NCBI GenBank assembly: GCA_018267825.1
Contig: JAFDXR010000012.1
Span: 25,246-89,245, forward strand
From: Bacteroidota bacterium
GTDB taxonomy: Bacteria; Bacteroidota; Bacteroidia; B-17B0; Aurantibacillaceae
Length of the DNA stretch: 64,000 nt
Direction of reading: 5' to 3'
A model generated the notes under the pieces. The model did no database searches and had not been told where the DNA came from. It saw only the letters and a program-made list of their open reading frames with translations. Within the stretch, counting starts at the first letter, position 1. The number at the start of each line of letters is the position of its first letter. Made by a program: the position numbers and the translations under genes. This document shows positions 19,283-38,904 of the stretch, one piece after another.

Positions 19283-19728
19283 AGTCTTTTTTATTTAAGG
19301 TTTTTAATAGAAAGAGCCGTTTTTTGAAGCCTTCGGATTTTATTGTGTCCGATCACGTTTTCAGTTAGCGAATCTTTGTTAAGTCCAAGTTACACATTTG
19401 AGCGTTAAACCGCAAAAGGAGTCGCTTGCTTGCTGTTACCTGTAAGGTGGCGGTAAACGGGCGCCTCTTGTTTACCTGTCTGCCGAATTCTGTCTTAGGG
19501 GATTTGTCCGTCACTTGCAGGTTATGGTTTCGGACTTTGTGTTCGTTTTGTTAGCCATGGTGTCCCAGCGAAGCAAACCTTTTGTCTGCCGACAAAATGG
19601 CGCCACTATCCAATGTTTATTGTGCCTGGTTGCAGGCGCGAATTAATAGCAAAGTCGCGCAGAACAAACTTCGGGCTGTTTTCAACTTGAGTTTTTGTTT
19701 TCTGTCGGCTACGCTGCTGTTTATAGTC
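19283..19728. other. 446-base gene-free gap with a half attC-like site
   Basis: No credible gene was found. Bases 19410-19443 read CCGCAAAAGG, then GCTTGCTTGCTGTTACCTG, which is the inner and right arm of the palindromes in the cassette array, including the GTTACCT outer box (19435-19441). The matching left arm is missing. The stretch at 19388-19411 shares CAAGTTACRCATTTGAGC with the loop of the array site at 25934. Further GTTA-containing fragments at about 19513 and 19550 look like decayed copies. Confidence 0.5.
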
Positions 19729-23154: not shown

Positions 23155-23164
23155 GTGAGACTCA

Positions 23165-23431
23165 TCAACACCTGATTTTATAGAGGACCCAATAGATAAA
23201 ATAAACAAAACTCAAAACCAGAAGCGGGCCAAAAGTCCAGCATAAGACATGGCCTGCTGTATGGAATTCTGTTCTGGTTCTTAAAAAGAAACCGGTTACA
23301 AATAGGGTGATACACACGGCCCATATTGTTCCAAGATTGTCAATAACCTTCAGATTTATTATTTGCAGAATTTCGAAGATTGTTGCTGTTGTTAAAACCG
23401 AAAATAAGGGAATTCTGATCCTGTTATTCAT
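23165..23431 (-). CDS. Small membrane protein, three helices
   Basis: 88 residues with hydrophobic segments at about 9-27, 34-51 and 64-82 (VLCWTFGPLLVLSFVYFIYW). No family recognised. It is followed by the barrel-like protein gene after 10 bases and probably shares its transcript. Confidence 0.5.
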   Translation of the reverse strand: MNNRIRIPLFSVLTTATIFEILQIINLKVIDNLGTIWAVCITLFVTGFFLRTRTEFHTAGHVLCWTFGPLLVLSFVYFIYWVLYKIRC

Positions 23432-24313: not shown

Positions 24314-24447
24314 AATTAGACCGAAGACCTTGTTTGCCTCCGGTTTTTATCTGTTATTGACAGGCATTGGTTTAGTACTTTTCAAAAAGAATGTTAAAAT
24401 CAGCAGGATGTAGTATACTCTTGTTGTCAAAATAATCCAGTCAGTCC

Positions 24448-24543
24448 TTGCGTTTTCGCGATTTGTGGTCGGGCGGGTTTTCGGAGCACAAAGCTCTATG
24501 GTTGTACGTCAGCCCGCCTGCCGCAAAATCCGTGTTATAGGCA
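24448..24543 (-). repeat. attC-like site A (distal end of array, left core lost)
   Basis: Right arm CCGCAAAATCCGTGTTATAGGC is preserved in pieces (GTTATAG at 24534-24540), and an inner stem GGGCGGG/CCCGCC pairs. The expected left YAAC box is replaced by CCTTGCGTTTT, so this end could no longer accept the next cassette. It follows the stop codon of the YfeS-like gene at 24548 directly. Confidence 0.6.
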
Positions 24544-24547
24544 GCTT

Positions 24548-25072
24548 TTATTCAATTTTGCTTAAGTCTATCAACATCGTGTTCAGGTTGTCACTACGCT
24601 CCTTGGTTGCGTCGCCTTCATATTGTCTGTTTACTATCAATTGTCTTTGGATAGCAATTTTTGCAAGCTCTTTTAGGTCTTTGTCAACTTGTCCGGATAT
24701 TTTTATTTGTCCGAAAGCGGCGGCAATTATTGTATTATCCATACAGTTGATAAAGTGAGGGTCTTCGTCTTGAAGTTGTTTCAAGGTCGGTTCGTCAAGA
24801 ATTTTGGAACACCCTTCACTTGCATACTTAAAACCAAATTCGTCAATAGTCTTGTACAACCATTTTATAATTCCTTTTCCTTTTTTCTCCTGATAGAATT
24901 CTTCAAGATTGAATAATAGGTCAGCTCCATCATCATTTCCAAACGGTGAAAAGTCATTAGTGCAGTCATAATAAAAGCCTGCTATCATATTTTCTACAAA
25001 TTTGGGATGACTTGTCTCTTTTGTTAAAGCGTCTCCTTCAGGGTCGTCATAATAAAATTTCTTTCCTGGCAT
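24548..25072 (-). CDS. Cassette gene: YfeS-like protein
   Basis: 174 residues. The run SHPKFVENMIAGFYYDCTND followed by SPFGNDDGADLLF and, later, DNTIIAAAFGQIKISGQVDK resembles the small YfeS-like family of cytosolic proteins (HP-x-F... SPFGNDDG... AFGQ). No enzymatic role is known to me. The stop codon is 7 bases from the GTTATAG box of site A. It is expressed most likely from the promoter inside site B. The family match is from memory and should be treated as moderate. Confidence 0.6.
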   Translation of the reverse strand: MPGKKFYYDDPEGDALTKETSHPKFVENMIAGFYYDCTNDFSPFGNDDGADLLFNLEEFYQEKKGKGIIKWLYKTIDEFGFKYASEGCSKILDEPTLKQLQDEDPHFINCMDNTIIAAAFGQIKISGQVDKDLKELAKIAIQRQLIVNRQYEGDATKERSDNLNTMLIDLSKIE

Positions 25073-25095
25073 ATTGTCTGTGTCTTTTTAGAGTT

Positions 25096-25282
25096 GTCGC
25101 TAACGTTTTGCGGCCATGGCTGGTTTGGATTCTCAAAACATCAACTTCTTTAACCGAAAACAGGTTATTTAAAGATACCCAGGTTTTTGGGCTGCCGCAA
25201 ATAAAATTTCGCGTCAGCGACCTTTATAATAGCGCGGCGATGAGATATTTCCACTCAATGGCCAGCAGGTGCTGTTAGGTGC
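25096..25282 (-). repeat. attC-like site B
   Basis: Outer boxes GTCGCTAAC (25096-25104) and GTTAGGTGC (25274-25282, a perfect GTTRRRY). Inner arms GCGGCCATGGCTGG and GGCCAGCAGG pair imperfectly. The right box is 6 bases from the stop codon of the phosphoesterase gene. The loop carries a promoter at 25170-25202. Confidence 0.7.
25170..25202 (-). promoter_or_regulatory. Promoter inside site B
   Basis: Minus-strand ATTTG (25198-25202), 20-base spacer, TATCTTTA (25170-25177). It points at the YfeS-like gene starting at 25072. Confidence 0.5.
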
Positions 25283-25288
25283 TTTTAC

Positions 25289-25915
25289 TTAAACGTCAAA
25301 AGTGAGTGGGGCATTCTTTAATACATAATTCTCGTCCAGAACAGAGGCGTTAATAAACCTTGTCATTGAATGCGATAATTGTCCATAAGCCTCGTGAATA
25401 TGTCCGCACACATGAAATTTTGGTTTTAATTCGCGCACCTTGTCAAGTAAGTCCTTACAACCGACATTCTTTCCATCTTTTGTTTTGTCGAGTTTGCAAA
25501 ACGCAGGTCCGTGAGTGATCAATATGTCGGTGTCTGACGGAATTAGGTCCCAGTGTCGGGCGATTGGTTCACCGCGTCTACGATTAAACGCCCAATCAAA
25601 AAACCATGGAGTGACAGGTGATCCCCAAATCTTAACATTCTCAATAGTTGTTCCGCTGTCACATAAATAAGTTACATTGTTGGGAATGATTTTTTTAATC
25701 TCTTCGCCTGATGTCCGTTCAAAATAAAAATCATGATTACCGGCAATGAATATTTTATGTTGATAGTCGAGAGTTGAAAACCAATTTAGAAAATCAATTA
25801 CTTCATTTTCTTCACCGCGTCTGCTTACGTCACCAGCATGTATGATCACATCACCTTTGGGTAGTATCAATCGGTGATGTTGTCCGTGTGAGTCTGCGAT
25901 GGTTACAAATTTCAT
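25289..25915 (-). CDS. Cassette gene: metallophosphoesterase
   Basis: 208 residues with all five calcineurin-type blocks: IADSHGQ (D8, H10), IIHAGDVSRRG, IAGNHDFYF, ILITHGPAF and CGHIHEAYG. Length and motif spacing match the UPF0046/MPPED-like metallophosphatase group, which bind two divalent metals and cleave phosphodiester or phosphomonoester bonds; the natural substrate is unknown. It is a single-gene cassette whose stop codon lies 7 bases from the core box of site B. Confidence 0.88.
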   Translation of the reverse strand: MKFVTIADSHGQHHRLILPKGDVIIHAGDVSRRGEENEVIDFLNWFSTLDYQHKIFIAGNHDFYFERTSGEEIKKIIPNNVTYLCDSGTTIENVKIWGSPVTPWFFDWAFNRRRGEPIARHWDLIPSDTDILITHGPAFCKLDKTKDGKNVGCKDLLDKVRELKPKFHVCGHIHEAYGQLSHSMTRFINASVLDENYVLKNAPLTFDV

Positions 25916-25933
25916 AATGTCTGTCTGGCATTT

Positions 25934-26030
25934 GCAGATAACGTTTGGCGCTTACTTGCATTTTTTTGCTCTTTCAAGTTACGCATTTGAGCCTTAACAC
26001 GCAATATACATGGAATTTAATTTGTTTAGC
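25934..26030 (-). repeat. attC-like site C (right arm decayed)
   Basis: Left box GCAGATAAC (25934-25942) and arm GTTTGGCGCTTACTTGC are intact. The right box is degenerate, perhaps GTTTAGC at 26024-26030 overlapping the stop codon of the next gene. The loop has CAAGTTACGCATTTGAGC, also present at 19388. Confidence 0.5.
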
Positions 26031-26406
26031 GATATATATTGCCGTCGAGTGTCATGTACTTTTCACCAGTCTGTACGGTGTCACAGTTGGTAATAAATGA
26101 ATATGTCGCTATTGTTGGATACATTGTTATTTTATAGGATTCTTTGTCTTTTTTGCTAGAGAGTCTACCAAATAATAAATAATCATTCTTAATAAACCAC
26201 TTTCTGTGTTGTGTGTCCCGTACAAATTTTCCATCTTTGTACCATTCCATACCGCCACTTCCGTCTTTGTCAATACTTATGTAATGCTTTTCATTAGAGC
26301 TGGTATAGTGAACCCATGTTCCAATTAATTCAGAATGATTTTTTGTTATTTTTTCTCGTTTGCAAGAGAATAGCGTCAGAACTATGATTATAGAATAAAA
26401 CTTCAT
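26026..26406 (-). CDS. Cassette gene: hypothetical lipoprotein
   Basis: 126 residues from ATG 26404-26406; an ATG at 26428-26430 lies inside the core of site D and would add 8 residues before the signal. Lipobox VLTLFSCKR (Cys15). The mature part contains LIGTWVHYTSSNEKHYISID, the opening of a lipocalin-like or DUF-type beta-barrel common in Bacteroidota lipoproteins (I-G-T-W). Function unknown. Confidence 0.6.
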   Translation of the reverse strand: MKFYSIIIVLTLFSCKREKITKNHSELIGTWVHYTSSNEKHYISIDKDGSGGMEWYKDGKFVRDTQHRKWFIKNDYLLFGRLSSKKDKESYKITMYPTIATYSFITNCDTVQTGEKYMTLDGNIYR

Positions 26407-26424
26407 TATTGTTTTCTTGGCATT

Positions 26425-26505
26425 GCGCATAACGGCTTGATGCTTTGTGTCGGTTGGCTTTTGAAAGAAACTGTCAGCCTACTACGTAAAAACCGTGTTA
26501 GTGGC
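26425..26505 (-). repeat. attC-like site D
   Basis: Outer boxes GCGCATAAC (26425-26433) and GTTAGTGGC (26497-26505). At 81 bases it is the shortest site. Inner arms GTCGGTTGGC and GTCAGCCTAC pair with bulges. The gene to its right stops at 26521. Confidence 0.7.
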
Positions 26506-26520
26506 TGCCATTATCTTCGG

Positions 26521-26958
26521 TCATTTTTTATGTGTCCAAAGCCAGGCATCACCAATTTCATCGTCTTGTACAATTTCAGTAAACACAAAATTATTGTTCT
26601 CTAAAATTTTTGTTGAAACGTTTTTTTCAGGTGCTGTCTTTGCCGTAATTGTCAGGCTTGGGTCTGCTTGTTTAGCAATTGTAACAAGTTCTTTGCAGGC
26701 AAATGAAGCAATGCCTTGACCTTCAAATTCCTTAAAAGTCCAATATGAAAGTTCAACTCTTCCGCCTATTGGTTGTCCAACGAAACTGCACGAGCCAACA
26801 ATTTTGCCTTCTCTAATAATAAAGTAACCGACCCAAGGAAAGTTGTAGCCGATTTTAGGATAGAAGTCATCATACATTGCAAGTAAAGTTTGGCAGTCAG
26901 CCGAAGCATAAAGTTCTTTTGTTTTATCTTCTTGTTGTGTTATTTGTTTTAATTTCAT
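26521..26958 (-). CDS. Cassette gene: GNAT-family N-acetyltransferase
   Basis: 145 residues. KIVGSCSFVGQPIGGRVELSYW leads to the acetyl-CoA loop FEGQGIASFACKELVTIA and the C-terminal KILENNNFVFTEIVQDDEIG, the usual N-NNF-x-x-x-G/E ending of the fold. The acceptor is unknown. GNATs are frequent integron cargo. The cassette ends at site D, 16 bases beyond the stop codon. Its 5' limit (TTAGTGGT) is complementary at 7 of 8 positions to the site D box (GCCACTAA). Confidence 0.85.
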   Translation of the reverse strand: MKLKQITQQEDKTKELYASADCQTLLAMYDDFYPKIGYNFPWVGYFIIREGKIVGSCSFVGQPIGGRVELSYWTFKEFEGQGIASFACKELVTIAKQADPSLTITAKTAPEKNVSTKILENNNFVFTEIVQDDEIGDAWLWTHKK

Positions 26959-27009
26959 TTCAATTGTTCAATGTTATGTTGTTGTCATATCAGTTGTTGC
27001 CATGCGTTT

Positions 27010-27246
27010 ACCACTAACGGGTTTTAAGCATACTAAGTGCGGCGCTTTGAAACCGAACTGTTTCCTGCTTACAAAATACTTTAAACAAAGATAACTTTTT
27101 TTAGCACGGCAAAAGTGCAGTGTACTTTTGAGCGAGGTTGTTGGTCGGAAAACAAAAAAGTGTCAGCGAAACTGAAAGCGAGCAGGCATTGATTTAGCCG
27201 GAGCCCTTCTTCGTCAGTCCGCTTGAGCTTGCTGGCTGTTATGCGG
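27010..27246 (-). repeat. attC-like site E
   Basis: Outer boxes ACCACTAAC (27010-27018) and GTTATGCGG (27238-27246). At 237 bases it is the longest site. Its right half (CAGCGAAACTGAAAGCG, then GCCCTTCTTCGTC and GAGCTTGCTGGCTGTTA) is nearly identical to that of site F, showing recent common origin. It holds a promoter at 27086-27114. Confidence 0.75.
27086..27114 (-). promoter_or_regulatory. Promoter inside site E
   Basis: Minus-strand TTTTG (27110-27114), 16-base spacer, perfect TATCTTTG (27086-27093). It points at the GNAT gene starting at 26958. Confidence 0.5.
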
Positions 27247-27263
27247 CGTTGTGAACATATTGC

Positions 27264-27445
27264 CTAATGGAGCTTAGGGCTTTTTGTTTGTAATTTTTCA
27301 TCTTCAATGTCGAAATCGTCTTGATGCCCAAGCCAATTGAGGGAGGAATCATGAAATCTTTTATACTGTCTGCGGAGCATGGAACGCCACTTTTGCAGAG
27401 CTGGAGCTAGCGGTTCGTTGTTTTTATTTCGGTTTTTTAATATAG
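27264..27445 (-). pseudogene. 5'-truncated cassette gene fragment
   Basis: A minus-strand frame ending in TAG at 27264-27266, 17 bases from the right box of site E, reads EPLAPALQKWRSMLRRQYKR and on to a C-terminus DEKLQTKSPKLH. It is convincingly protein-like and placed where a cassette gene should end. No start codon precedes it before an in-frame stop near 27445, so the 5' part has been lost, probably when the oxidoreductase gene was joined on. Family not recognised. Confidence 0.5.
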
Positions 27446-27536
27446 TATTTTATTTCTTAACCAAAGTCAACGAGAGTAGGAAATGCGCCACCTACTTTTG
27501 TCCTTTGAAATAATGATAAAAAAGAAAAAAGTAACA

Positions 27537-28490
27537 ATGAAAGCAGCAATTTACGTTCAATATGGTTCTCCAGAGGTTCTCCGGGTCAAACAGGTAGAAA
27601 AGCCAATACCAAACAAAAATGAGATTTTACTAAGAATTAAAGCCACCGCAGTCAATTCAGGTGATTGGCGATTGCGCAAAGCTGACCCATTTGCGGTAAG
27701 ATTTATTTTCGGTTTCTTAAAACCTAAAATTAATATTCTTGGAAGTGTTTTTTCAGGCGAAATTGAAAGTGTCGGTGAAGATGTAAAACAGTTCAAAGTG
27801 GGTGACTTTGTCTTTGGTCATACAGATATGAGCTTTGGTGCCTATGCTGAATACAAATGTCTGCCTGAAAATGCGTCAATGGCATTGAAACCGGCTAATT
27901 TTTCTCACAAGGAGGCAGCTGTTATTCCTTTTGGTGGAGTTACGGCATTGCACTTTATAAAAAAGGCAGCAATAAAACCAGGACAAAAAGTGCTTGTAGT
28001 TGGTGCTTCTGGTGCCGTGGGGAGTGCTGCAGTTCAATTGGCAAAGTCATATGGAGCTATTGTAACAGGTGTTTGTAGCACTGCAAATACGGATTTTGTA
28101 AAATCTATCGGAGCAGGCAAAGTAATTGATTATACTAAGGAGGATTTTACTCGGAATGGCGAAACGTATGATGTGATTTTTGACGCTGTGAAAGCAATAT
28201 CTGTTTCACGAAGTTTAAAGTCGCTAAATAAAAATGGAATAATGATTTTAAGTGCCGCAGGAATGTCTGAAATGCTTCAAGGCGTTTGGATTTCTATGAC
28301 AAGTAGCAAAAAGGTTATGACTGGTGTAATTAGTCATACAGCGGCAGATATTATTTTTCTAAAAGGACTTATTGAGACCGGTAAATTGAAGCCTGTAATT
28401 GATAGAACCTATGGCCTGGAACAAATAGCTGAAGCACACGCTTATGTTGAGAAAGGGCATAAAAGAGGAAATGTTGCAATAGAAGTTTAG
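27537..28490 (+). CDS. Cassette gene on opposite strand: zinc-free MDR oxidoreductase (quinone reductase-like)
   Basis: 317 residues from ATG 27537-27539 (KAAIYVQYGSPEVLRVKQVE is the classic family start; a longer frame to 27483 is unlikely). GroES-like N-terminal domain, then the Rossmann motif VLVVGASGAVGSAAVQLAKS, and GVCSTANTDFVKSIGAGKVIDY. Zinc ligands are absent. It probably reduces quinones or enones with NADPH. It is the only plus-strand gene in the array. Its stop codon overlaps that of the convergent Crp/Fnr gene by 4 bases, with no palindrome between them. Confidence 0.88.
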   Translation: MKAAIYVQYGSPEVLRVKQVEKPIPNKNEILLRIKATAVNSGDWRLRKADPFAVRFIFGFLKPKINILGSVFSGEIESVGEDVKQFKVGDFVFGHTDMSFGAYAEYKCLPENASMALKPANFSHKEAAVIPFGGVTALHFIKKAAIKPGQKVLVVGASGAVGSAAVQLAKSYGAIVTGVCSTANTDFVKSIGAGKVIDYTKEDFTRNGETYDVIFDAVKAISVSRSLKSLNKNGIMILSAAGMSEMLQGVWISMTSSKKVMTGVISHTAADIIFLKGLIETGKLKPVIDRTYGLEQIAEAHAYVEKGHKRGNVAIEV

Positions 28491-29071
28491 GTGTTAAGCC
28501 GATGAGCTATTCGTTTTCTGATCCTGCTTAATGATTCTGGTTTTGCGCCAATGTAGCTTGCTATTTGGTATTGTGGTATTTTTTGAAATAAATCAGGTCT
28601 TGATTTTAATAATTTCAAATAACGCTGTTCGGCTGTATCAGTTGTATATGAGGACATTATTTCTTGTTGCTCTGCAAAAACTTTCTCCATTACTTTTCTC
28701 GAAACGGTTTCAAATTTTGGAAACCGTTTGTAGAGGAGTTCTTCCTTTTCTCTGTTTCCCACAACCAATGAGCTGTCCATACAGCAATCCAAATAATGAT
28801 TGGATGGGTTGTTTTGACTAAAGCTATTCATAGAAATTACCCATTGCTCTTCTGTGAAGAAGTTATTTGTTTTCTCGTCACCGTCAACCAAATAAAATTG
28901 TCTAACACAGCCTTCTAAAACAAAATAGACTTCAGTAGAAATTTGTCCTTCTTTAAGCAAAACAGTCCCCTTTTTATAATGCTGAATGCTCATGGTTTCA
29001 ATAATAGCTTCAATCTCTTCTTGTGAAAGAGGCATAATTCTTTGAAAATATTTAAGGAGTTTATAATCCAT
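28487..29071 (-). CDS. Cassette gene: Crp/Fnr-family regulator
   Basis: 194 residues: cyclic-nucleotide-binding-type sensor domain (HYKKGTVLLKEGQISTEVYF, VLEGCVRQFYLVDGDEKTNNF) and a C-terminal HTH (QIASYIGAKPESLSRIRKRI). Bacteroidota members of this type often sense unknown effectors and control a neighbouring gene. The convergent quinone-reductase gene is the obvious candidate. Transcription probably starts in site F. Confidence 0.87.
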   Translation of the reverse strand: MDYKLLKYFQRIMPLSQEEIEAIIETMSIQHYKKGTVLLKEGQISTEVYFVLEGCVRQFYLVDGDEKTNNFFTEEQWVISMNSFSQNNPSNHYLDCCMDSSLVVGNREKEELLYKRFPKFETVSRKVMEKVFAEQQEIMSSYTTDTAEQRYLKLLKSRPDLFQKIPQYQIASYIGAKPESLSRIRKRIAHRLNT

Positions 29072-29113
29072 TATTTTAGTCTATTTGGCCTTTCTGTGCC
29101 GTACCTTGCAATG

Positions 29114-29314
29114 ACCGCTAACGGATGGCAAGCAGGGGCAGGCGGCATTTGAACCGAACTGTTTTCTACACACAAATTGTTTTATAACAAAGATAAATGT
29201 TTTTTAAGCGGAGGCAAATTAAATTACTATCAGCGAAGCTGAAAGCGGGCAGGCATTAATTTTAGCCTTAGCCCTTCTTCGTCCCGCCGCTTGAGCTTGC
29301 TGGCTGTTACCTGC
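29114..29314 (-). repeat. attC-like site F
   Basis: Outer boxes ACCGCTAAC (29114-29122) and GTTACCTGC (29306-29314). Arms GGCAAGCAGGGGCAGGCGGC and GCCGCTTGAGCTTGCTGGC pair apart from about four extra bases on the left side. The loop is closely related to that of site E and carries the best promoter of the array. Confidence 0.78.
29188..29219 (-). promoter_or_regulatory. Promoter inside site F
   Basis: Minus-strand ATTTG (29215-29219), 19-base spacer, perfect TATCTTTG (29188-29195). It points at the Crp/Fnr gene starting at 29071. Confidence 0.6.
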
Positions 29315-29321
29315 AGTTTTG

Positions 29322-29951
29322 TCAATTAAGTTCTTTTATGCTTTCATTGAGCCATTCGTCATACCAATCTGTGAATGTCATTTTTTGTTTTGTAAACTTG
29401 GATATCGCAGGATATAACCCCATGTCATTTGCTCTGTCGTCAACCCAAATATTACCAGCTTCTTGTCCTGTAATTATTAGCAAAAAATAAATGGCGCAAC
29501 CATAATGGCAAATTCTTATGCTGCCAGTTATATGCTTATTGCTGAAATATTCTTTTTCCCAATTTTGAAATTCTGGAGTAAGATAATGGTCGTCATTATT
29601 TATGTCTCCAGTATATTGCATGTTCCAGTTGTCTGTATATGAGAACGGAGTCGATAGAAATTTTTTGTCTGATATAGCTAATTCATAATTCCAATTGTCA
29701 AGTTGAAGAAGTCCATATGCGGGTCCAGCACCACCGTTTTCTATATGTAATAAAAAATTTTTATAGTCGGCAGGAAGTGCTATGGAATGGGTGTTCTCGA
29801 AAGACTTAACTTGTTTTTCGGATAAAGTTGGATTTAGATTATAATGATGCTTGTCAGAACCAAATATTTTGAAATAATGTCTTTTGAATAAACTTTTCCC
29901 GTCAAGTTTACGAAGTCTTTGCAGTTTATTCATAAGTTCTGTTGTCGTCAT
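29322..29951 (-). CDS. Cassette gene: SUKH (SMI1/KNR4) family protein
   Basis: 209 residues from ATG 29949-29951 (TTTELMNKLQRLRKLDGK); the frame runs on to 30020 through site G but that part is palindrome sequence. The core LSEKQVKSFENTHSIALPADY, FLLHIENGGAGPAYGLLQLD and ICHYGCAIYFLLIITGQEAG are characteristic of SUKH-1, and WVDDRANDMGLYP with FTDWYDEWLNESI is the usual C-terminal part. SUKH proteins act as immunity proteins to polymorphic toxins or as scaffolds. No toxin gene is adjacent, so it may be an orphan immunity gene. Confidence 0.85.
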   Translation of the reverse strand: MTTTELMNKLQRLRKLDGKSLFKRHYFKIFGSDKHHYNLNPTLSEKQVKSFENTHSIALPADYKNFLLHIENGGAGPAYGLLQLDNWNYELAISDKKFLSTPFSYTDNWNMQYTGDINNDDHYLTPEFQNWEKEYFSNKHITGSIRICHYGCAIYFLLIITGQEAGNIWVDDRANDMGLYPAISKFTKQKMTFTDWYDEWLNESIKELN

Positions 29952-29957
29952 AAAATT

Positions 29958-30143
29958 GTAGGTAACGTTTTGCAAATATTTCCCAGTGCGGTTTTCGGAG
30001 CACCCACTGTCTATACCCACAAATGTTTATTCCGAAGATAACTGTTTTTTAGCGAGCCGAAAAATAACCGCGTTAGCGACCACTTGTCTGCGTGCGAGCG
30101 ATGACCCTTGTCTCCCGCATTGGGCGAATTTGCTGTTATAACC
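29958..30143 (-). repeat. attC-like site G
   Basis: Outer boxes GTAGGTAAC (29958-29966) and GTTATAACC (30135-30143). Arms TTGCAAATATTTCCCAGTGCGG-like (left) and CCGCATTGGGCGAATTTGC (right) pair well. A weaker promoter-like TATCTTCG lies on the minus strand at 30033-30040. Confidence 0.7.
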
Positions 30144-30160
30144 AGTACGGGGCACACAGT

Positions 30161-30682
30161 TTATTCACATGTCCGCTTTTTTTGTCTTAATTTATTAAAG
30201 AACAAAATGAAACTGCCAATAATTAAAGTGAAAAGAGTGAGAAAATAGATTATAAAAAATGGGCGAGAAAAAGTCCAGAAGTTTGCGTTATACTCAAGAG
30301 GTGACCAGTCTGTGACTTTGTACAAAGCTGAATATTCTCCGCACTCCTTGTAAAATATCGTGTCGTAGCCAACAACATTACCGGATAAAATATATGAATT
30401 GTTAAGGTATAAAACCACGTTCCCTTTTCCATTGTCAAGGTGTGTCGAGGGTGTATTGTCGCCAATTGTATTTAAATCCGTAACATTTTTTATAAGCCCT
30501 TTCAAGTTGTCTGGAATTGTGAGTGTGCCTTTGAGAACTCTAAGACTTGGAGAACACGTCGACTCTTGAGGTGTCACAAGAATTTGGTCGGAGTTCATTT
30601 TGTCTTTGTTAGCCGGAAATTTGTATGGAACGAAGCCGAGTCCGATTAAAAGAATAAATATTGTCAATATTAATTTATGCAT
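30161..30682 (-). CDS. Cassette gene: hypothetical bitopic membrane protein
   Basis: 173 residues with an N-terminal hydrophobic segment (LILTIFILLIGLGFVPY) and a C-terminal helix (FFIIYFLTLFTLIIGSFILFF) followed by a basic tail (NKLRQKKRTCE). The segment between is extracytoplasmic and beta-rich. No family recognised. The stop codon is 17 bases from the core of site G. Confidence 0.6.
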   Translation of the reverse strand: MHKLILTIFILLIGLGFVPYKFPANKDKMNSDQILVTPQESTCSPSLRVLKGTLTIPDNLKGLIKNVTDLNTIGDNTPSTHLDNGKGNVVLYLNNSYILSGNVVGYDTIFYKECGEYSALYKVTDWSPLEYNANFWTFSRPFFIIYFLTLFTLIIGSFILFFNKLRQKKRTCE

Positions 30683-30714
30683 TTTTGTCTACCGAGATGC
30701 TGTCCGCGCTTTTT

Positions 30715-30895
30715 ACCTATAACGGTTGGCAAGCTTGCACAGTGCGAATTTGGAACAATCGTCAACCGAATATTTTATTGAAACATCATGCTCACTTTTT
30801 GCTTAGATGAAAATACACTTTTCTGCGAAGCAGGCAAAATCGTAAGCAAAAACTTCTTCGTCACCCGAATTGTGCAATTGCTTACTGTTACCAGT
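30715..30895 (-). repeat. attC-like site H
   Basis: Outer boxes ACCTATAAC (30715-30723) and GTTACCAGT (30887-30895). Arms GGCAAGCTTGCACAGTGCGAA and CCCGAATTGTGCAATTGCTTAC pair strongly, with a few extra left-side bases. Confidence 0.72.
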
Positions 30896-30912
30896 TTGGC
30901 CGCCTCACACAG

Positions 30913-31431
30913 TTAATGTTGCTTATTTACGAAATAGTCGCGAAACTCATAGTATTTTTTCCAACTGTTGTCGCGGTCGTCAACTTTGAAGGAACTAGTA
31001 AAATAGTCCTTTGTAAATTGAACCTCATAACTATTTGATGCATTTGATATAATATCAGGTGCAGGTTTATGTTTTGAAAGTCCAATCAGGTATTCCTTAA
31101 CGACTTGCCAGTCTGTTATTCGTAAAGTGTCCGTCCAATTTGTACGAATGGCTGAGGGCAATTTTTTTTCACCTGCAAGTTCTTTTGGGCAGTTTGTTTT
31201 TTCACGGGAATATATAATTGTCAATGCATCTTTGAATTTGTAAATCACAATTTTTTCCACGTGTCCACCCCATTCGCCGCAATCGTAGTCGTCATGGATA
31301 TAGCTAATTAGTTTTAATGTTGTTGAATTGTCATAATTTTGGAAGTCCGTAAATGAATTGATGTCTTGGCTGTGCAAATCCAAGGTCAGTATACTTAGTA
31401 AACACAGTATTAAATATTTTGTAAAGTTCAT
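30913..31431 (-). CDS. Cassette gene: exported CGEWGG protein, paralogue of the lipoprotein at 4597
   Basis: 172 residues from ATG 31429-31431, which puts the signal peptide YLILCLLSILTLDLHSQ at the N-terminus; a frame to 31542 crosses site I and is not expected to be translated. The mature part has DDYDCGEWGGHVEKIVIYK and, near the end, SNASNSYEVQFTKDYF and YYEFRDYFVNKQ. The same landmarks occur in the lipoprotein gene at 4597-5085 (CGGEWGGCLEQNKIY; SNGPNYYEVKTNDY). Function unknown. Confidence 0.7.
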   Translation of the reverse strand: MNFTKYLILCLLSILTLDLHSQDINSFTDFQNYDNSTTLKLISYIHDDYDCGEWGGHVEKIVIYKFKDALTIIYSREKTNCPKELAGEKKLPSAIRTNWTDTLRITDWQVVKEYLIGLSKHKPAPDIISNASNSYEVQFTKDYFTSSFKVDDRDNSWKKYYEFRDYFVNKQH

Positions 31432-31476
31432 TTGTCTAACTAAGTGTTTGTGTACCGGGATTTGTCCAGACGGCTT

Positions 31477-31611
31477 GCTCCTAACGGTTTGGCGCTTGGC
31501 GTTGGTGGGCTTTTGAAACAGAAAACTGTCTACCAGCACCAATGTTTATTAATTGCTCAAATGTTTCTATTTGCACTGTCCGCCCACTAACGCAAAACCC
31601 GTGTTAGTGGC
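31477..31611 (-). repeat. attC-like site I
   Basis: Outer boxes GCTCCTAAC (31477-31485) and GTTAGTGGC (31603-31611). Arms TTTGGCGCTTGGCGTTGGTG and CCCACTAACGCAAAACCCG pair. The stop codon of the next gene (31604-31606) lies inside the GTTAGTG core. Confidence 0.75.
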
Positions 31612-32425
31612 GGCCTTTTTCATTGTCCGCTGTTTGTTTTTCGTATATCGTTGTCAAGTTTGTCTCAAATGCAGGAAACGCAACGACAGGAAACCAATCA
31701 TTTTTAAAATTAGTTAGTTTGTCTGTTGCCGTGTCCATAAATTTCATATGTCCTGCAGTTTGGTCGTTGATTGTGATAAATGTTTCTGCTAAATGAATTT
31801 CAATTACAATACAATCATACGCAAATTGGTCAATTTTATATGCTGTAATTAAAGTTATCTCGTCCCAATTTATTGTCTTAATTTCTTTGTCAAGTTGAAT
31901 TGTAAATGAATTGTCAGCATAGGAAAATACTCCGTCTTGATAAGCTGGGAAATTTTCCTTCGCTGTGTTGTTTATCCTTTCAATGTCGTCTTCAAAATTG
32001 TAACTGTCGGAAAACCAAATTTTAGGATGGTCAACAGCAATAGCGGTCAAAACAATAACAGACAAACCTATTGACAACATTGGAAGTCCGCTTGAAATGT
32101 CTTTGTCACCAAAAACCGAAGCAAGTCCGCCAACTAAGAAAAATGATGAAATTATGATAATAAAGAGAGTGGAAAGAGATGAAAACGGAAGCTGTAACCA
32201 CCTGTCCGTCTTGCGAACCTTTTTGTTGTCTTTAAATTCTATTCTCTTGTCAAATAGAAACCATGCAAACAAAAGTGTCGGAATACCAAATAAGAATATG
32301 AATACAATGTTTTGATCAAACCGTTTTTGTCCTGCTGAGTATAGGTCGTAAAGTCCAACACCCGTAATTGCGATACAAGGTAGTATTAAAGTTTCTGTTA
32401 ATTGTTTTGATATTGGAACTTTCAC
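31604..32425 (-). CDS. Cassette gene: four-helix membrane protein with soluble tail
   Basis: 273 residues. Four hydrophobic helices in the first about 140 residues (TLILPCIAITGVGLYDLY, VFIFLFGIPTLLFAWFLF, LFIIIISSFFLVGGLAS, LSIGLSVIVLTAIAV), then a cytosolic region (FSYADNSFTIQLDKEIKTIN, WDEITLITAYKIDQFAYDC) resembling bacterial PH-like domains. The last codons and the TAA are formed by the core of site I, so any insertion or exchange at that site rewrites the C-terminus. Cassette ends 5' TTAGTGGC / 3' GCCACTAA are perfectly complementary. Confidence 0.65.
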   Translation of the reverse strand: MKVPISKQLTETLILPCIAITGVGLYDLYSAGQKRFDQNIVFIFLFGIPTLLFAWFLFDKRIEFKDNKKVRKTDRWLQLPFSSLSTLFIIIISSFFLVGGLASVFGDKDISSGLPMLSIGLSVIVLTAIAVDHPKIWFSDSYNFEDDIERINNTAKENFPAYQDGVFSYADNSFTIQLDKEIKTINWDEITLITAYKIDQFAYDCIVIEIHLAETFITINDQTAGHMKFMDTATDKLTNFKNDWFPVVAFPAFETNLTTIYEKQTADNEKGRH

Positions 32426-32442
32426 TGTCGTCTGTTAAGGTT

Positions 32443-32618
32443 GCCACTAACGGTTTCCAAGCAGGCACAGTTTGCAGTTTGAAACAGTGTCTACCGAATG
32501 TTTGTTTAAAGATACTAATGTTTGTTGCTTTTGCAAAAATGAAAAAATTGTCCGCCGAAACTTTTTGCAAAAGCTATTACCTCGTCCGCGCAAATTGGGC
32601 TTGCTTGGTGTTATATGC
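32443..32618 (-). repeat. attC-like site J
   Basis: Outer boxes GCCACTAAC (32443-32451) and GTTATATGC (32610-32618). Arms CCAAGCAGGCACAGTTTGC and GCAAATTGGGCTTGCTTGG pair almost fully except for about four left-side extra bases (GTTT). The stop codon of the next gene (32611-32613) is in the core. Promoter at 32507-32538. Confidence 0.8.
32507..32538 (-). promoter_or_regulatory. Promoter inside site J
   Basis: Minus-strand TTTTG (32534-32538), 19-base spacer, TATCTTTA (32507-32514). It points at the membrane-protein gene starting at 32425. Confidence 0.5.
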
Positions 32619-33045
32619 TGGGCGTTTCTGTCGCGTTTAATATGTTTATTTGAAGTCTAGATGCAATAGCTACAAATTGAACAATGTTATTTGCCTTACA
32701 GTTAAATTGAAATTGTATTCCGTCAAAATAACCTTGGTTATTTGTCATTTCCCACACCCAGGTCAATTTACTGCCTAGCAAACCAAATAATACATTGTCT
32801 TGATGGTTTGATATTTTAATAACGTTGTCCTTGTCAACATTAAATTGGTCTTGACTATGTGATTGAGATTGATCGTGAAAAAGAATTTCTAACTCGTCAG
32901 TGTCTGAGTTAACATTTATCATGTAGAGATAGTGTTGAAACTTCAAAACAACGCTTTCTTTCCAACTAGCATTTTCGGTGTCGCTATATTGAACGAGAAA
33001 AATTTCGTCTAATTTGTTTCCAATTATGGTGTCTACAGTCAACAT
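32611..33045 (-). CDS. Cassette gene: DUF6334-like hypothetical protein
   Basis: 144 residues with no signal or membrane helix. The pattern TIIGNKLDEIFLVQYSD, VVLKFQHYLYMINVNSDTDE and a C-terminal helix resembles small beta-rich immunity-like families such as DUF6334; the match is tentative. The TAA stop is part of the GTTATAT core of site J. Cassette ends (5' TTATATGC, 3' GCATATAA) are exact complements, and the complementarity extends to 13 of 14 bases. Confidence 0.6.
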   Translation of the reverse strand: MLTVDTIIGNKLDEIFLVQYSDTENASWKESVVLKFQHYLYMINVNSDTDELEILFHDQSQSHSQDQFNVDKDNVIKISNHQDNVLFGLLGSKLTWVWEMTNNQGYFDGIQFQFNCKANNIVQFVAIASRLQINILNATETPSI

Positions 33046-33064
33046 TATTTATTTTTCACGCCTA

Positions 33065-33164
33065 GCATATAACGTTTCGCAAGCAGGCATAGTTTGCGGC
33101 TAATGTTCAGCCCCGCATTTGAGCAGCACTGCGCCGCAAATTTTGCTTGCTTGCTGTTATGTGC
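33065..33164 (-). repeat. attC-like site K (first site, nearest the recombinase)
   Basis: Outer boxes GCATATAAC (33065-33073) and GTTATGTGC (33156-33164). Arms CGCAAGCAGGCATAGTTTGC and GCCGCAAATTTTGCTTGCTTGC pair over their length; extra bases TTTC lie on the left. The 100-base site is the cleanest palindrome of the array. The loop contains GCATTTGAGC, shared with sites C and the remnant at 19.4 kb. Confidence 0.82.
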
Positions 33165-33175
33165 TGCCTTTATTG

Positions 33176-33763
33176 TCAATCTATTATTTTTAGTTGTCTA
33201 GCCAACTCCATGTTTGTCGTTACAAGCAAATTGTCCATTAAAGGATAAATCTCGTTTTCTTCGTCACGTTTTAATTCAGATGCGCTTAAAATAATAGTTC
33301 TGCCATTTTGAGTTTTAATTACAAAGGTCTGCGGATATGTGGTATAAACTTTATTTGTACCGTCAAGATTTGAGGTCCAGGTTTCCTCCCAGATTATTTT
33401 GAAGTCAATTATTTTTTGTCCGATTAATTGAGACCATTTATTTTCACTTGAAACGTCCCATTTTTGTTCGTACTCATTGGTTTTTTCAGTCAGGTCAACT
33501 TGTTTTGATTTCAGTCCGTAACAAATAAATGTGTTGTCCCAGAAAACGTAAATGGTCTTGTCCGTCGTTTTAAAATAAACAGAATGGTCAAGAGTGTCAA
33601 TGTCAGGATATTTTGTCTTGTAGTATGGCTCAGGATTGATGTTATTTCCGTTTTCGTCCGCAAAGTATTTCAATTCTCCATATATAACGGCACAAATTGT
33701 CTGCCCGACGAACATTTGTCGACAGTCATTTTCATAAGCAATATGTTTGTCTGCCAGTGTCAT
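33176..33763 (-). CDS. Cassette gene 1: hypothetical protein with internal duplication
   Basis: 195 residues, cytosolic. Two halves share a pattern: VGQTICAVIYGELKYF...KTIYVFWDNTF and IGQKIIDFKIIWEETW...GRTIILSASEL. The protein at 32611 has one such unit (IGNKLDEIFLVQYSD). No family assigned. As the first cassette it is the most recently gained under the integron model. Its 5' end (TTATGTGC) and its own site K box (GCACATAA) are exact complements. Confidence 0.6.
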   Translation of the reverse strand: MTLADKHIAYENDCRQMFVGQTICAVIYGELKYFADENGNNINPEPYYKTKYPDIDTLDHSVYFKTTDKTIYVFWDNTFICYGLKSKQVDLTEKTNEYEQKWDVSSENKWSQLIGQKIIDFKIIWEETWTSNLDGTNKVYTTYPQTFVIKTQNGRTIILSASELKRDEENEIYPLMDNLLVTTNMELARQLKIID

Positions 33764-33770
33764 TAAGGTT

Positions 33771-33875
33771 GCACATAACTACATTATAGGATGATCTTTT
33801 TCCACCATATCTTGCAGAAATTGCAAGATATGATTAGATTCTATCCTTAATGGCTTATTCTAAAATAAGGATTTT
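33771..33875 (-). other. attI-like segment between recombinase and first cassette
   Basis: The junction box GCACATAAC (33771-33779) is the outer limit of cassette 1. Beyond it lie 96 bases up to the recombinase stop codon. These contain a perfect inverted repeat CATATCTTGCA-GAAAT-TGCAAGATATG (33806-33832) and a weaker one ATCCTTA/TAAGGAT (33843-33849, 33866-33872). In integrons attI holds recombinase-binding repeats beside the crossover point, which this arrangement would fit. It is not a normal attC-like palindrome. A terminator role is possible but there is no T-run. Confidence 0.5.
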
Positions 33876-35054
33876 CTATAAACTGTCAAAAGGGGTTGTA
33901 ACTTTTTGTATACTGTTATTACTAACATGTGTATATATTTCTGTCGTTGTGCTGCGGCTGTGCCCCAATATGACCTGTATATAGCGTAGATCGGTTCCGC
34001 TTTCCAGTAAATGGGTGGCATAGCTATGCCTCAGCCAATGCAGTGTTACAGGCTTAGTTATATTACATTTTTCCAGAGCTTGTTTTAAGACAGCCGCCAG
34101 ACTGCTGGCATCATAAGGGGTTTCCTTAGCCTGACCTTCAAAGAGCCATCGCTTAGGTCTGCAGGCAATAAAGTAACTTCTCAAAAGTTCAAGTGTTTTT
34201 TGAGATAAGGGCACAATGCGGTCTTTTGCGCCTTTAGCTTGCCTCACAATCAGCAGGTTTCTCTTGCTGTCTACATCCGTAATTTTTAAATTAAGCAATT
34301 CACTCCGGCGAAGACCGCAACTATAAATTAAACTCAGCATGGCCTTATGCTTTAAATTACTATGCGCGTTTAAAATCCGTTTTACTTCTTCTTTACTTAA
34401 TACATTGGGCAGTATTTTTTCACGTTTGGGCCGGTGAATTAATTCAATATCCATGCTTCTGTTTTCAATTGTTTTGAGAAATAATTTCAAAGCATTTACC
34501 ACCTGGTTCTGGTACGATGCAGATAATTTGTGCTTAAGTATATAATCCGTATTGAAAGTAATAACATCCTGGTTTGTCAGATCCGAAATAGCCTTGGGAT
34601 GATGGAAACGCAAAAATAGTGTTAAAGCATCTGTGTAAGTGTCAATTGTATGGTCACTATACCGCTTGGATTTTAGCCAATTTGTAAACTGCAGCACTTT
34701 TTTTAAAACAGCTTCGTTAAGTAATGGAAGATCAGAACGTACTTTTACACCATGAACGGAAGACAATTCTGAGGCTCTGGTGGATATACCTGAGGCCTGA
34801 TATGTATGTTCTATAAGCGGCATTTGCAAATCACTATAATCTAACCACGCATAACCATTCAGGATCTGAAATAACTCCTGTTTTATTGTGATCGAAGCGG
34901 GTAAATACCAGCAATTCATAGTTTTACTCCAACGTATAGGTTGCTTGTATAAACGTAGTCTTTTTAATAGGCTATCGTTTTTCACGAAATGTAATTGTAC
35001 AACATCATGCTTGTCATGATGCGCCATCTGTAATTTAATAATCGGCAAAGTCAT
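33876..35054 (-). CDS. Tyrosine recombinase, integron-integrase-like without IntI insertion
   Basis: 392 residues. An N-terminal extension of about 105 residues contains LKRLRLYKQPIRWSKTMNCW, a module seen in Bacteroidota integrases. A SAM-like core-binding domain follows (about 112-205), then the catalytic domain with YSCGLRRSELLNL (Arg249), RQAKGAKDRIVPLS (Lys274), HWLRHSYATHLL (His339, Arg342), LGHSRSTTTEIYTHV (His365, Tyr374) and the IntI-like ending PFDSL. ITKPVTLHWLRHSYATHLLE closely recalls IntI, but the approximately 20-residue IntI-specific insertion before the HxxR box is not present. It is transcribed toward the array, which suggests it recombines the palindromes and the attI-like site. 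A promoter lies 5 bases ahead of the start. Confidence 0.9.
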   Translation of the reverse strand: MTLPIIKLQMAHHDKHDVVQLHFVKNDSLLKRLRLYKQPIRWSKTMNCWYLPASITIKQELFQILNGYAWLDYSDLQMPLIEHTYQASGISTRASELSSVHGVKVRSDLPLLNEAVLKKVLQFTNWLKSKRYSDHTIDTYTDALTLFLRFHHPKAISDLTNQDVITFNTDYILKHKLSASYQNQVVNALKLFLKTIENRSMDIELIHRPKREKILPNVLSKEEVKRILNAHSNLKHKAMLSLIYSCGLRRSELLNLKITDVDSKRNLLIVRQAKGAKDRIVPLSQKTLELLRSYFIACRPKRWLFEGQAKETPYDASSLAAVLKQALEKCNITKPVTLHWLRHSYATHLLESGTDLRYIQVILGHSRSTTTEIYTHVSNNSIQKVTTPFDSL

Positions 35055-35154: not shown

Positions 35155-38100
35155 TTAGGCCTGCACTTCCGTCACAATGCTTGGGAAGATCCTCACATTG
35201 CCATTGTCTTCGCGGCGGAACTGGTAGGTGTATTTGTAGTGACTTTCCAAACCACTCTTGTTCGGGAGCCCGTTAATCATCATAATGTTGCGGTTCTTCG
35301 CAAAACGCAGAAGCTCGCGCAGGTAGTGGGCAGAGATCTGACCTACCTCGTCGATGATACAGTGTACCTTGAAATCCTTACTGCTGCGGTGACTCGATTC
35401 CTTAATGAATACGTGCAACAGAGTAATATAGATAATGGCTTTTACCAGGATGTCGGTACCGGTGCTTCCGATGCTATCAATCTTATGGGTCCAGCCGGTT
35501 TCGTTCATCCCTTCTTTGATGTTGAACTTAAGTTCAAATAGATCTTGTAAGCGAATTTCTTCCTGCTCCTGTTCCTTAATGGCCGAGCGGAGCTGCTCGA
35601 GCAGTTTCACCGCACGGTTGCTGATCTCGCGACTCTTGGTGCCGGTCGCAAAATCGGTGTTGAATAAACCTTCGTTGTATACCAGGCCATTCTCCTCGCG
35701 AAACTCTTCAATGCGCTTGAGGAGCTTATACACTTTGTTATCCGATTCCTCGAGCTTGATCTTGATAAACTCAATGAGCTTGCTCTCCTCGAACTCGGCT
35801 TTTTTAAAGTCTTCCGCAATGAGGGAAATAATGTGCTGGATTTTATCCTGCTGGTTGCTCAGCTCTTTTACCTTGGTGGCAATACTGTCGGTAACGAGAC
35901 CGATCTGGGTGGCTGTTTCGGCAATGGAGAGCTCAATTTTATGTTCGTTGATGAACGAACGCAGGTTCTGTGCAAAACGCTCGTATTCGGCCTGTGTGGC
36001 GTCGTGGCGGATCATGAAGTTGAAGTGGTTGTCGAGCCTGAACTTGCCTGCAAACTCATTCACATAACGCTGAAATGCACCGTACTCTTCGTTGAAATGC
36101 GAATCGTTTTTGAGGAGCTGGGTACAAAGGTCCATCACACTGTAATTGGTTTTCTTTGGTTCGGCACGCTCAATGATCTCGGCATACTTGTTATATACCG
36201 GTGTTTCGCGGAAGTTTTTGGTGAAGTAATTGATCCCGTTGTTGAACTCAATGAGCTCCTCGTCAAAGGCACGTTTCTGCTTGTTGAGCTCCATGCGTTT
36301 GAGGTTGTATTTGCGTGTGGCCTCTTCGAGCTGGTTGCTCAGGTCGTTGGCCGAACGCACATATTCATCTTTCTTCTGAATCAGGTCAGGCAATTTGTCA
36401 AATATCTCGCGTTTATCCTTAAGATAATCGCTCACGATCTGCGAGTACTGTTCAATTTCCTTGAGAGCTTCCTGAAGTTCCTTAATGCGGTTGTCGATCT
36501 GTTTGATCTGTTTGCTGTCTACACCTTTCGATTTGAAATTGCTTTCTTTCTCTGCACTGAGTTCGGCTTCCTTCTGCTCAAATTCCTTCACCTGGTTTTT
36601 CTTTTCTACTTCCAGTTCGCTGATCTCCGTTTCCTGGCGTGATTTGAGGTCGGCCAGGCGTTCTTCATTAAACACACGGAGTTTTTCAAACTGCAGGTGG
36701 AAATCGTCGAGGAGGTTATTCTTCTTTTTATTGAGAATAGCCAGCTCTTCTTCAATAATATTGAGGCGTTGCCTGTTGCCGCTCAACGATTCTTCTACTT
36801 CTTTGCTGGCACGGGCTTTCCAGTCTTCGAGTTCGGCAATGAGTTTTTTCTCGCGTTTGTCGGCCAGCTCCAGGGAGTAGGCAAGTACTTTTACTTCTTC
36901 CTTGAGTTCACCCAGTTGTTTACCGTATTTATCGGCTGCCAGCATTTTCTCTTCGTTGTTGGTTACCTGAAATTGGTTCATGGCTTCTTCCAGATCGCGG
37001 ATCGCTGCGAGGCGCTCGTTTTTCTCAAACTGGTATACTTCAATGGATTTTGATACCACGCTCACATCGTCGAGCTTCAGCTTAATGCCATACAGCGATA
37101 CATCTTTGCTGTCGGTAAGGCTTGGCTCCAGGTCGGTGCGGAACAGCAATTCCTCATTCACCACTTTACCAATGGTGGTATGCCAGTCTTTCACGTTTTT
37201 CTCGAGGTAACCGTAAAGGGCATCGTGCTGCACATTCAGCTTATCTTCAATCTGCCTGATCTCCGTTTTTACACGGATGATCTCGTTATTTGTTTTCTGA
37301 ATCTGGTTCTGTAAAGAGGTTTTGAGTTTTAACTCGAGGGCTTCCCACTCTTTCTGAAGGGTCTGCACCATGTTTTGTTTAATGGCACGCTCACTCTTGT
37401 TTTTATAGGATACCGCGCGAAGTTCGGCCAGCTCCATCTCATGCGCCTTGATCTCATTTTCGTAGAAACGTGTATTGCGGATGACTTTCTCTTCCGATTT
37501 GAGTTCGTTGAACTCAATCTGCTTGGCTGTGATCTCGGCATTGGTTTCGCTGAGGGCATCTTCGCGTTTCTGTTTTAATTCGGCATCTTTTTTATTGAAC
37601 TCGTTTTTCTGCAATAACTGCAACTCGTTGTAATGGTTGAAGATGTCGCTCGTACGCGAGTTTATTTTATTGATGTAGGCGGTTTTGTCGTTACGCAACT
37701 GATCAATGAGCGATGAGTATTTCATCTCAATGCTTTGTACATTGGAGGTGAGCGACTCGTACTCGCGGCGGGCTATGTTGAGCTCTACCTGAAGCTTTTC
37801 GCGCTCGGCATTTTTCTCAACGGCCTGTTCAATGTTTTTTTCTTTGTATTCTTTGAGTTTTTTATTGGCTTCGCGGATGGTACGGTCGTAGTAACCGATC
37901 TCTTCGCGGATATCTTTCTGTTTTTCTTCCAGCTGATCTTTGTGCGTCTCGTGGTCTTCACCCAGTTTTTCGAGTTCTTCTTCTTTTTGTTTGGAAGCCT
38001 TGAAAATAGTGTCGTTCTGGGTTTCGGCATAACGGAGGCTGCTGCCGAGTTTATCGGCCATTTCCATTTGCGCACCCTTGAGCATATGTACCTGATCGTA

Positions 38101-38841: not shown

Positions 38842-38904
38842 GTTTAATCTTTCCCTTCGTATAGGTTTGTCTTGGTACATACCGGACCATTCCGGCGCTT
38901 TATT

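Follow-up and report, generated by a model that had tools for sequence, protein, structure and literature searches.

A 64,000-nucleotide stretch of a Bacteroidota genome (contig JAFDXR010000012.1; hereafter, the window) contains an array of gene cassettes beside a tyrosine recombinase gene. Comparison of this locus with related genomes indicates that it is very probably an integron-type cassette platform served by an Xer-type recombinase without the insertion specific to IntI. The logic would be that of an integron, yet the system stands outside the IntI integrons as defined by their additional domain, with a recombinase and site rules of its own. It is also a widespread system, not one odd locus.

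The cassette array of the window and its recombinase

Between 24.5 and 33.8 kb of the window, genes alternate with imperfect palindromes whose two ends are TAAC and GTTA, and all cassette genes but one lie on the minus strand. The whole 64 kb was scanned on both strands for TAAC...GTTA pairs with complementary arms. The seven best-ranked pairs were the array sites K, F, I, J, G, H, and B (-41.1 to -24.0 kcal/mol). For six shuffles, the best chance pair per shuffle lay between -23.5 and -27.6, and K, F, I, J, and G exceeded every shuffle maximum. H (-26.5) and B (-24.0) fell inside the range of shuffle maxima and would not stand out by energy alone; they were accepted because of their position and form. 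D and E were weaker than these two. In a 400-kb control, 10 of 270 TAACA..CGTTA pairs reached -22; of these, a single locus with coding-like repeats accounted for four, three resembled true sites of a third cluster described below, and three were others. A plain inverted-repeat finder (seed 9, minimum 18) missed the sites, the arms of which are interrupted, and no match was obtained in the window with Rfam at gathering thresholds.

Two covariance models were also used. Model R1, in which the arms were joined and the middles omitted, missed most long sites, probably because of the model's limit on match length. Model R2, built from 21 sites of about 126 nt, of which 20 came from other loci, outperformed R1. 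A first MAFFT alignment of the sites (A1) was rejected, with I and D misplaced.

Following the array away from the recombinase, the attC-like sites, all on the minus strand, are K (33070..33159, 90 bp), which was the top pairing match and was also found by R2 (E=8e-8); J (32448..32613, 166 bp), found by the pairing scan and R2 and containing a promoter-like TTTG-N19-TATCTTTA; I (31482..31606, 125 bp), found by the pairing scan and by R2 at E=1e-19, a value to be read with the fact that I was among the 21 sites from which R2 was built; H (30720..30890, 171 bp), to which a site of this genome's second array (L022) is similar by eye; G (29963..30138, 176 bp); F (29119..29309, 191 bp), with a promoter-like TTTG-N19-TATCTTTG inside; E (27015..27241, 227 bp), which is 89% identical to an 80-nt part of F; D (26430..26500, 71 bp), found by R1 at E=1e-5 and itself among the sites from which R1 was built; and B (25101..25277, 177 bp). 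G, like H, F, and B, came from the pairing scan. The decayed site C (25939..26010), read from the sequence, retains its R' GTTA at 25942-25939 and has an altered R''; it was absent from the matches of both R1 and R2. Site A (24444..24541), the last of the array with a decayed R', was found by R2 at no better than E=0.0045. A lone half-site, TAACAGCAAGCAAGC, lies at 19424-19442, 5 kb past the last site, and suggests a remnant of an older, longer array.

The recombinase gene (33876..35054, minus strand) is located upstream of the array and runs in the same direction. Its 392-aa product carries an N-terminal RW..CWY domain (residues 1-79), and R249, K274, H339, R342, H365, and Y374, which we take by position to be the catalytic residues, were invariant across 59 aligned sequences. 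This alignment (A4) comprised 54 of the best 120 of 7,998 proteins (8,000 candidates scored) and five sequences from the loci and the window; L117 was excluded from the tree because of its length. The IntI profile TIGR02249 gave 203.8 bits and did not reach its cut-off of 265, and the XerA profile NF040815 gave 220 bits, exactly its curated cut-off of 220. The IntI-specific insertion (I2) was absent in 36 of 36 family members and present in 15 of 15 IntI proteins. As in archaeal XerA and Xer proteins (NF040815, 5hxy, 4a8e), the catalytic and core-binding domains align without the insertion; unlike those proteins, the present family was found with cassette arrays and has the N-terminal RW..CWY domain. 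The best Foldseek match of the recombinase model was IntI4 (2a3v), and VIA-align placed XerA first. When the N-terminal domain was compared with Pfam for 23 sequences of the family, DUF5710 was matched in nine (best, 5.9e-5) and HARP in two (best, 0.01); the window recombinase's own N-terminal domain had no Pfam match. No match at E<=1e-40 was present in 22 of 60 related genomes, which would speak against a housekeeping role at a single dif site.

These results confirm and refine an earlier note on the same DNA. It had proposed eleven palindrome-ended units with sites of 80 to 240 bp. The units are mostly single-gene as described, and about nine sites of 71 to 227 bp stand, with C and A decayed. 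The YAAC/GTTR-ended palindromes were recovered, seven of them as the leading pairs of the window scan; beyond TAAC/GTTA lie five cassette-specific bases in place of the canonical GTTRRRY. The note was right about the tyrosine recombinase beside the array, in which the expected catalytic-site residues are in place, and right that it lacks the IntI insertion.

Site structure, cassette ends, and the attI-like point

For 21 aligned sites from nine sources, 93% of stem cells were in standard pairs (a value raised by the way the sites were found, as discussed below), and 16 of 18 inner pairs changed on both sides. When the partner was slid by one to three columns, pairing fell to 28 to 40%. The nine window sites alone were 76% paired, versus 26 to 39% when slid. 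Few letters were fixed. They were TAACA, AAA-C ahead of GTTA, an A that usually faces C in the stem, and an A at the seventh base past GTTR, which was found in 101 of 102 sites. The right core was mostly GTTA-B-V-N-G-Y-M-A (GTTANNNGYMA). The canonical R' (GTTRRRY) and R'' (RYYYAAC) were each found in 9 of 102 sites and both together in 2, and the base after GTTR was A in a single site. YAAC/GTTR stood at the model ends in 102 of 107 model-found sites, partly by construction, as the model holds these letters. The spacers were unequal (2 versus about 6 nt). The stem aligned gap-free in 63 of 100 sites, with one gap in 24 and more in 13; at stem position 13, the bases paired in 6 of 100 sites and formed A.C in 69. 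The covariation indicates that the sites are conserved in structure and free in sequence, as expected for folded-strand recognition. Canonical sites instead have bulged bases, and IntI docks these with its I2 helix, which hinders exchange of the second strand (PMC7790495). Judged from the alignments, protein and DNA tend to differ from IntI at the same place, with no I2 and often no bulge.

The best-surviving alternative is that the same recombinase moves the cassettes as double-stranded DNA, with a short Xer/Cre-type core at GTTA, and that the hairpins have another role, for instance in termination or cassette birth. A recombinase without the IntI insertion would suit this, since Xer proteins are said to have neither I2 nor the recognition of single strands that goes with it (PMC7790495); the right half of the site also has fixed letters, CGTTA and the near-invariant A at +7. 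However, the letters of L''/L' vary while their pairing is kept, as the 16 covarying pairs show, which leaves no constant sequence for double-stranded binding of a second subunit. We consider this alternative unlikely.

Many longer sites also hold a promoter-like element of the Bacteroidota consensus, TTTG-N19-TAnnTTTG, oriented to the next gene. TAnnTTTG was found in sense in 15 of 56 sites and in antisense in 4, whereas random segments gave a mean of 3.6 and a maximum of 10 (200 draws). In a larger set, the counts were 22 of 102 in sense and 3 of 102 in antisense. The promoter reading appears to hold for many longer sites and for most of the 131-nt L016 sites, whereas the majority of 126-nt sites do not fit it. 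In integrons, promoters borne on cassettes are already known (PMC8618304).

If a unit moves as a circle, its own first bases (after the cut in GTTA) should pair with its own last bases (before TAAC), not with those of its neighbors. Cassette 2 of the window starts with GTTATATGCTAGGCGT, and its own end, when complemented, reads GTTATATGCTGGGCGT; its neighbors differ. Over 44 cassettes in 12 arrays, the own-end match averaged 4.59/6 versus 2.1/6 within the array, and none of 20,000 within-array permutations was as high. By position, agreement was 75 to 93% at the five bases after GTTA, 5 to 27% at the next two, and 77 to 80% at the following four. Own-end complementarity is about 9 nt here, and that of canonical cassettes is 9 to 11 nt (PMC2727003). 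When the sites were taken from the covariance model, 58 of the 72 cassettes, spread over 20 loci, matched at 5/5, compared with a mean of 16.4 and a maximum of 29 in 5,000 shuffles. For this test, 107 of 118 model matches were used; four opposite-strand duplicates, three matches that were cut off, and two overlapping-locus duplicates were dropped, as were L015:14656 and L012:14998, for which no reason was stated. Consecutive site pairs were counted only with intact cores and less than 4.5 kb apart.

By the same logic, the end of the first cassette (R'') predicts where that cassette begins, that is, the attI-like point. In the window, the R'' of cassette 1 gave GTTATGTGC at both ends and placed the attI-like insertion point at 33776..33820 on the minus strand, where ...CCTATAATGTA is followed by GTTA (33779-33776), about 97 nt after the recombinase stop. 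Of the 12 arrays, 11 had the predicted GTTA within 3.5 kb, 10 of them exactly and one (L067) with a single mismatch. In the remaining array, L078, the GTTA on the edge of the platform was matched by the end of the cassette closed by the first site found there. The other co-directed arrays have a TATAAACTA|GTTA-like motif at the same logical place, with a motif such as CCTATAAACTA preceding the attI-like GTTA. Orientation to the recombinase was fixed within each of two groups of arrays, with the attI-like point no more than about 0.8 kb away. All 12 arrays therefore appear to have an attI-like entry point beside the recombinase.

The genome of the window (G000) has a second array on contig C12 (L029, G000:C12:1-19000), whose recombinase is 41% identical to that of the window. 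Over 6,137 nt, its platform is 99.935% identical to a platform in another genus (G028; L078, G028:C2). One end of this identity lies inside a tRNA-Leu gene (anticodon gag in G000 and taa in G028), next to which is a serine-recombinase-like gene (named by eye). The other end stops exactly at the attI, ...AATAAAGAGTTA, after which the two genomes continue with GGCGC... and CAGGT..., respectively. The match is complete in both genomes, in G028 for the end of the first cassette and in G000 (second array) between the attI start and the first site's R''. Past the attI, comparison of the 12.4-kb array stretch of G000 with L078, L129, and L130 of G028 by blastn returned only pieces of 145 nt or less, which are site-sized matches. 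Insertion at attI would be expected to leave different arrays of this kind behind a mobile platform that the two genomes came to share recently, and we read them in this way. In the first cassette of the second array (L029 10569-12297), the gene of a type II DNA methyltransferase is accompanied by another, for which no Pfam or PADLOC match was found; this partner perhaps encodes the matching restriction enzyme, and the unit is likely a defense cassette.

Distribution and cassette content

At E<=1e-40, 38 of 60 related genomes carried the recombinase; at E<=1e-50, so did 44 of 118 genomes drawn over the phylum. R2 sites (E<=0.01, stricter filters) were present in 51 of the 60 relatives. Nearly all genomes that had the recombinase also had sites (37 of 38), compared with 14 of the 22 that lacked it (Fisher p=0.0009); the medians were 8 and 2 sites, respectively. 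By scan, sites were found in 9 of 20 fetched regions around the recombinases of relatives. Ten of the 11 siteless contigs end within 2 kb of the recombinase 3' end, and eight of the 20 contigs (G036, G021, G023, G034, G052, G039, G022, and G037) end less than 1 kb from it, as if arrays break assemblies. In the main group, arrays lie downstream of the recombinase; in the group of the 41%-identical paralogue (L029, L078, and L079), they lie on its other side and on the opposite strand. Overall, the recombinase was co-directed with the cassettes in 9 of the 12 arrays compared.

The size and setting of the arrays varied. On G028:C2, R2 sites span about 57 kb. Cultured hosts are also represented. 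A Chryseobacterium sp. SNU WT5 plasmid has R2 sites with E values down to 2e-15. Its array (L138, 12284-16066) contains an IS110-family transposase and a group II intron, near which three sites have the same R'' and a length of 79 nt; some group II introns target attC. On a Rufibacter tibetensis plasmid, 62-bp hairpin sites were found by scan behind a recombinase relative, with no R2 match. A third site cluster of G000 lies at L097 (G000:C28:20000-39999), with sites near 1995, 4301, 16822, and 17644. The only recombinase match on contig C28 is distant (C28:96048, 28%). The L097 cassette 16914-17648 meets or nearly meets the end rule by eye, and the model-based test gave 0 of 1 counted pair. 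Look-alike genes were seen by eye, from translations, near two clusters of this genome (L097 9607-10302 and window 22513-23208).

Few cassettes were shared between genomes. Among 94 cassette bodies (some of which may comprise two or more cassettes if an intervening site escaped notice), one pair was common to two genomes over most of its length (G010/G023, 91% over 2,459 nt). In addition, one exact duplication of 1,226 nt was found within a single array region (G113), and three further body matches involved G115 with itself (75%), G023 and G028 (70 nt), and two G000 clusters (73 nt). The largest open reading frame was in sense in 68 of 77 intervals and in antisense in 6, and none was found in 3.

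A canonical IntI (TIGR02249 over the cut-off) was found in one of the 60 relatives (G024), where the gene has an internal stop. In the phylum, IntI was present in 84 of 296 genomes, 83 of which lie outside the class of the window. G024 (L108, G024:C26) carries both the Xer-type system and the broken IntI gene; this genome is marked as 6% contaminated. It might be supposed that an ordinary integron built the arrays, with a canonical IntI located elsewhere or recently lost and the neighboring recombinase unrelated. The cluster on contig C28, without a close recombinase, the broken gene in G024, and the IntI genes elsewhere in the phylum lend this some support. Nevertheless, it is very improbable: a single relative has an IntI over the cut-off while 51 have sites, the arrays keep a fixed orientation per group with attI close to the recombinase, and the canonical core is rare among the sites.

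The checks proposed in the earlier note came out mostly in its favor. The same kind of palindrome adjoins recombinase homologues in other Bacteroidota, and cassette content differs as expected for turnover, with two pairs of bodies shared between genomes, one along most of its extent and the other for 70 nt. Conserved synteny without turnover, which the note named as contrary evidence, was not seen; behind the platform found in two genera, the array switches precisely where insertion was predicted. Palindromes unlinked to the recombinase, its second such sign, were found in part, in the 14 recombinase-less genomes that hold sites, as canonical orphan clusters also do. Its suggestion of a separate cassette-capture system stands as regards recombinase and site rules; the underlying logic is an integron's.

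The window units are single-gene except that between F and E, which holds two convergent genes. All genes lie on the minus strand except where stated. The genes of cassettes 1 (33176..33763, 195 aa), 3 (31604..32425, 273 aa), 4 (30913..31542, 209 aa), 5 (30161..30682, 173 aa), 9 (26026..26430, 134 aa), and 11 (24548..25072, 174 aa) received no functional assignment. Cassette 2 (32611..33045) encodes a DUF6334 protein (Pfam 1.7e-23); cassette 6 (29322..30020), an SMI1/KNR4 (SUKH-1) protein (Pfam 4.3e-7); cassette 8 (26521..26958), a GNAT acetyltransferase (Pfam 5.3e-10); and cassette 10 (25289..25915), a calcineurin-like phosphoesterase (Pfam 4.4e-14). Cassette 7 is the two-gene unit, with a Crp-like regulator (28487..29071; Pfam cNMP_binding 1.3e-10) and a quinone oxidoreductase-like gene in reverse orientation (27483..28490, plus strand). 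Beside the recombinase, at 35155-40592, lie a gene for a DUF3584 SMC-like ATPase (1241 aa) and then two more genes, perhaps a MukB/Mks- or Wadjet-like operon.

A possible mechanism and its meaning

Circular gene cassettes would be captured at the attI-like GTTA beside the recombinase and likely also excised, with the Xer-type recombinase as the presumed catalyst. Each site would be read as one folded single strand and cut at G|TTA. The A.C mismatch, the unequal spacers, and the near-fixed A at +7 may set strand and polarity in place of bulged bases, and the N-terminal RW..CWY domain may replace the IntI insertion in hairpin recognition. The promoter-like elements in many longer sites could drive the gene of the next cassette.

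Several points weigh against the interpretation of the locus as an integron-type platform with an insertion-less recombinase. The evidence for it is wholly comparative. Deletion of the insertion abolished the activity of IntI1 (PMC7790495), so that an insertion-less family needs a substitute, which is here only guessed. Pairing was the criterion by which the sites were initially picked, and a single one of them supplied the structure, which inflates the paired percentage and favors the unslid version; the two-sided changes appear less easily explained in this way. The 21 sites of R2 match that model by construction. For 37 of 100 sites, the best stem alignment includes one or more gaps, so the lack of a bulged base is not universal. 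At their ends, 14 of 72 cassettes fall short of 5/5, and in the window itself 2 of 7 site-to-site cassettes, plus cassette 1, reach it; this poor matching fits an old, partly decayed array. Misbinning of one contig is possible for the platform common to G000 and G028, though the tRNA-Leu contexts differ. Fourteen genomes have sites and no recombinase at E<=1e-40, L065 showed no site by scan in the 3.8 kb downstream of its recombinase, and a C. oryzae plasmid with a 50%-identical recombinase had no site by R2 or scan. As for the reading of the palindromes as terminators or repetitive extragenic palindrome (REP)-like repeats spread or duplicated in place, without cassette movement, intergenic palindromes can end transcripts and site E is partly a copy of F, but the own-end rule, the attI prediction, the differing arrays behind an identical platform, and the few cassettes common to congeners leave it practically no credence.

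The integron-type platform proposed here shares with IntI integrons a recombinase gene, an attI-like point, tandem and mostly single-gene cassettes in one orientation with complementary own ends, palindromic sites with AAC/GTT ends whose structure is kept over sequence, orphan clusters, and cassette turnover. In contrast to IntI integrons, it has no I2 insertion and an N-terminal extra domain, a core that is mostly GTTANNNGYMA instead of GTTRRRY, in most cases a symmetric A.C mismatch and often no bulge, a promoter-like element in many longer sites, and, in most arrays compared, a co-directed recombinase. Some window sites (up to 227 bp) are also longer than the 57 to 142 nt given for attC.

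Bacteroidota have already been listed among the integron-bearing phyla (PMC8618304, PMC2426708). In the latter study, the additional domain or intI patch served to select genes; IntegronFinder seeks IntI by profile. The IntegronFinder 2.0 paper records earlier In0 reports and one complete integron for Bacteroidetes proper, in Salinibacter ruber M1 (PMC9024848). Relative to these reports, the IntI genomes of our phylum-wide set lie, with one exception, outside the class of the window. The window family could fall in the integron-like subgroup of tyrosine recombinases (Smyshlyaev et al. 2021, PMC8138268); the passages of that paper on the subgroup call the insertion essential for integron function and describe no arrays or sites for insertion-less members. 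No description of the system was found in the open-licence literature searched, a collection without preprints.

The IntI insertion is held to have made of an Xer-like enzyme one able to handle folded single strands while leaving the chromosome uncut (PMC7790495). A widespread insertion-less family with covarying hairpin cassettes makes this idea directly testable, and the family may show a second or earlier route to hairpin cassette recombination. Such a family would also imply that many Bacteroidota have a gene-capture system likely to escape surveys based on IntI profiles. A broader proposal, which we regard as evenly balanced between true and false, is that the Bacteroidia have a large integron class of their own, a second route to hairpin-based gene capture that joins an Xer-family recombinase, an N-terminal domain resembling nucleic-acid-binding domains, and mismatch-marked hairpins for the task that IntI performs by means of an inserted helix and bulged bases. 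It would be the main integron of the class, carried on tRNA-integrated islands and plasmids, with site-borne promoters expressing newly placed cassettes.

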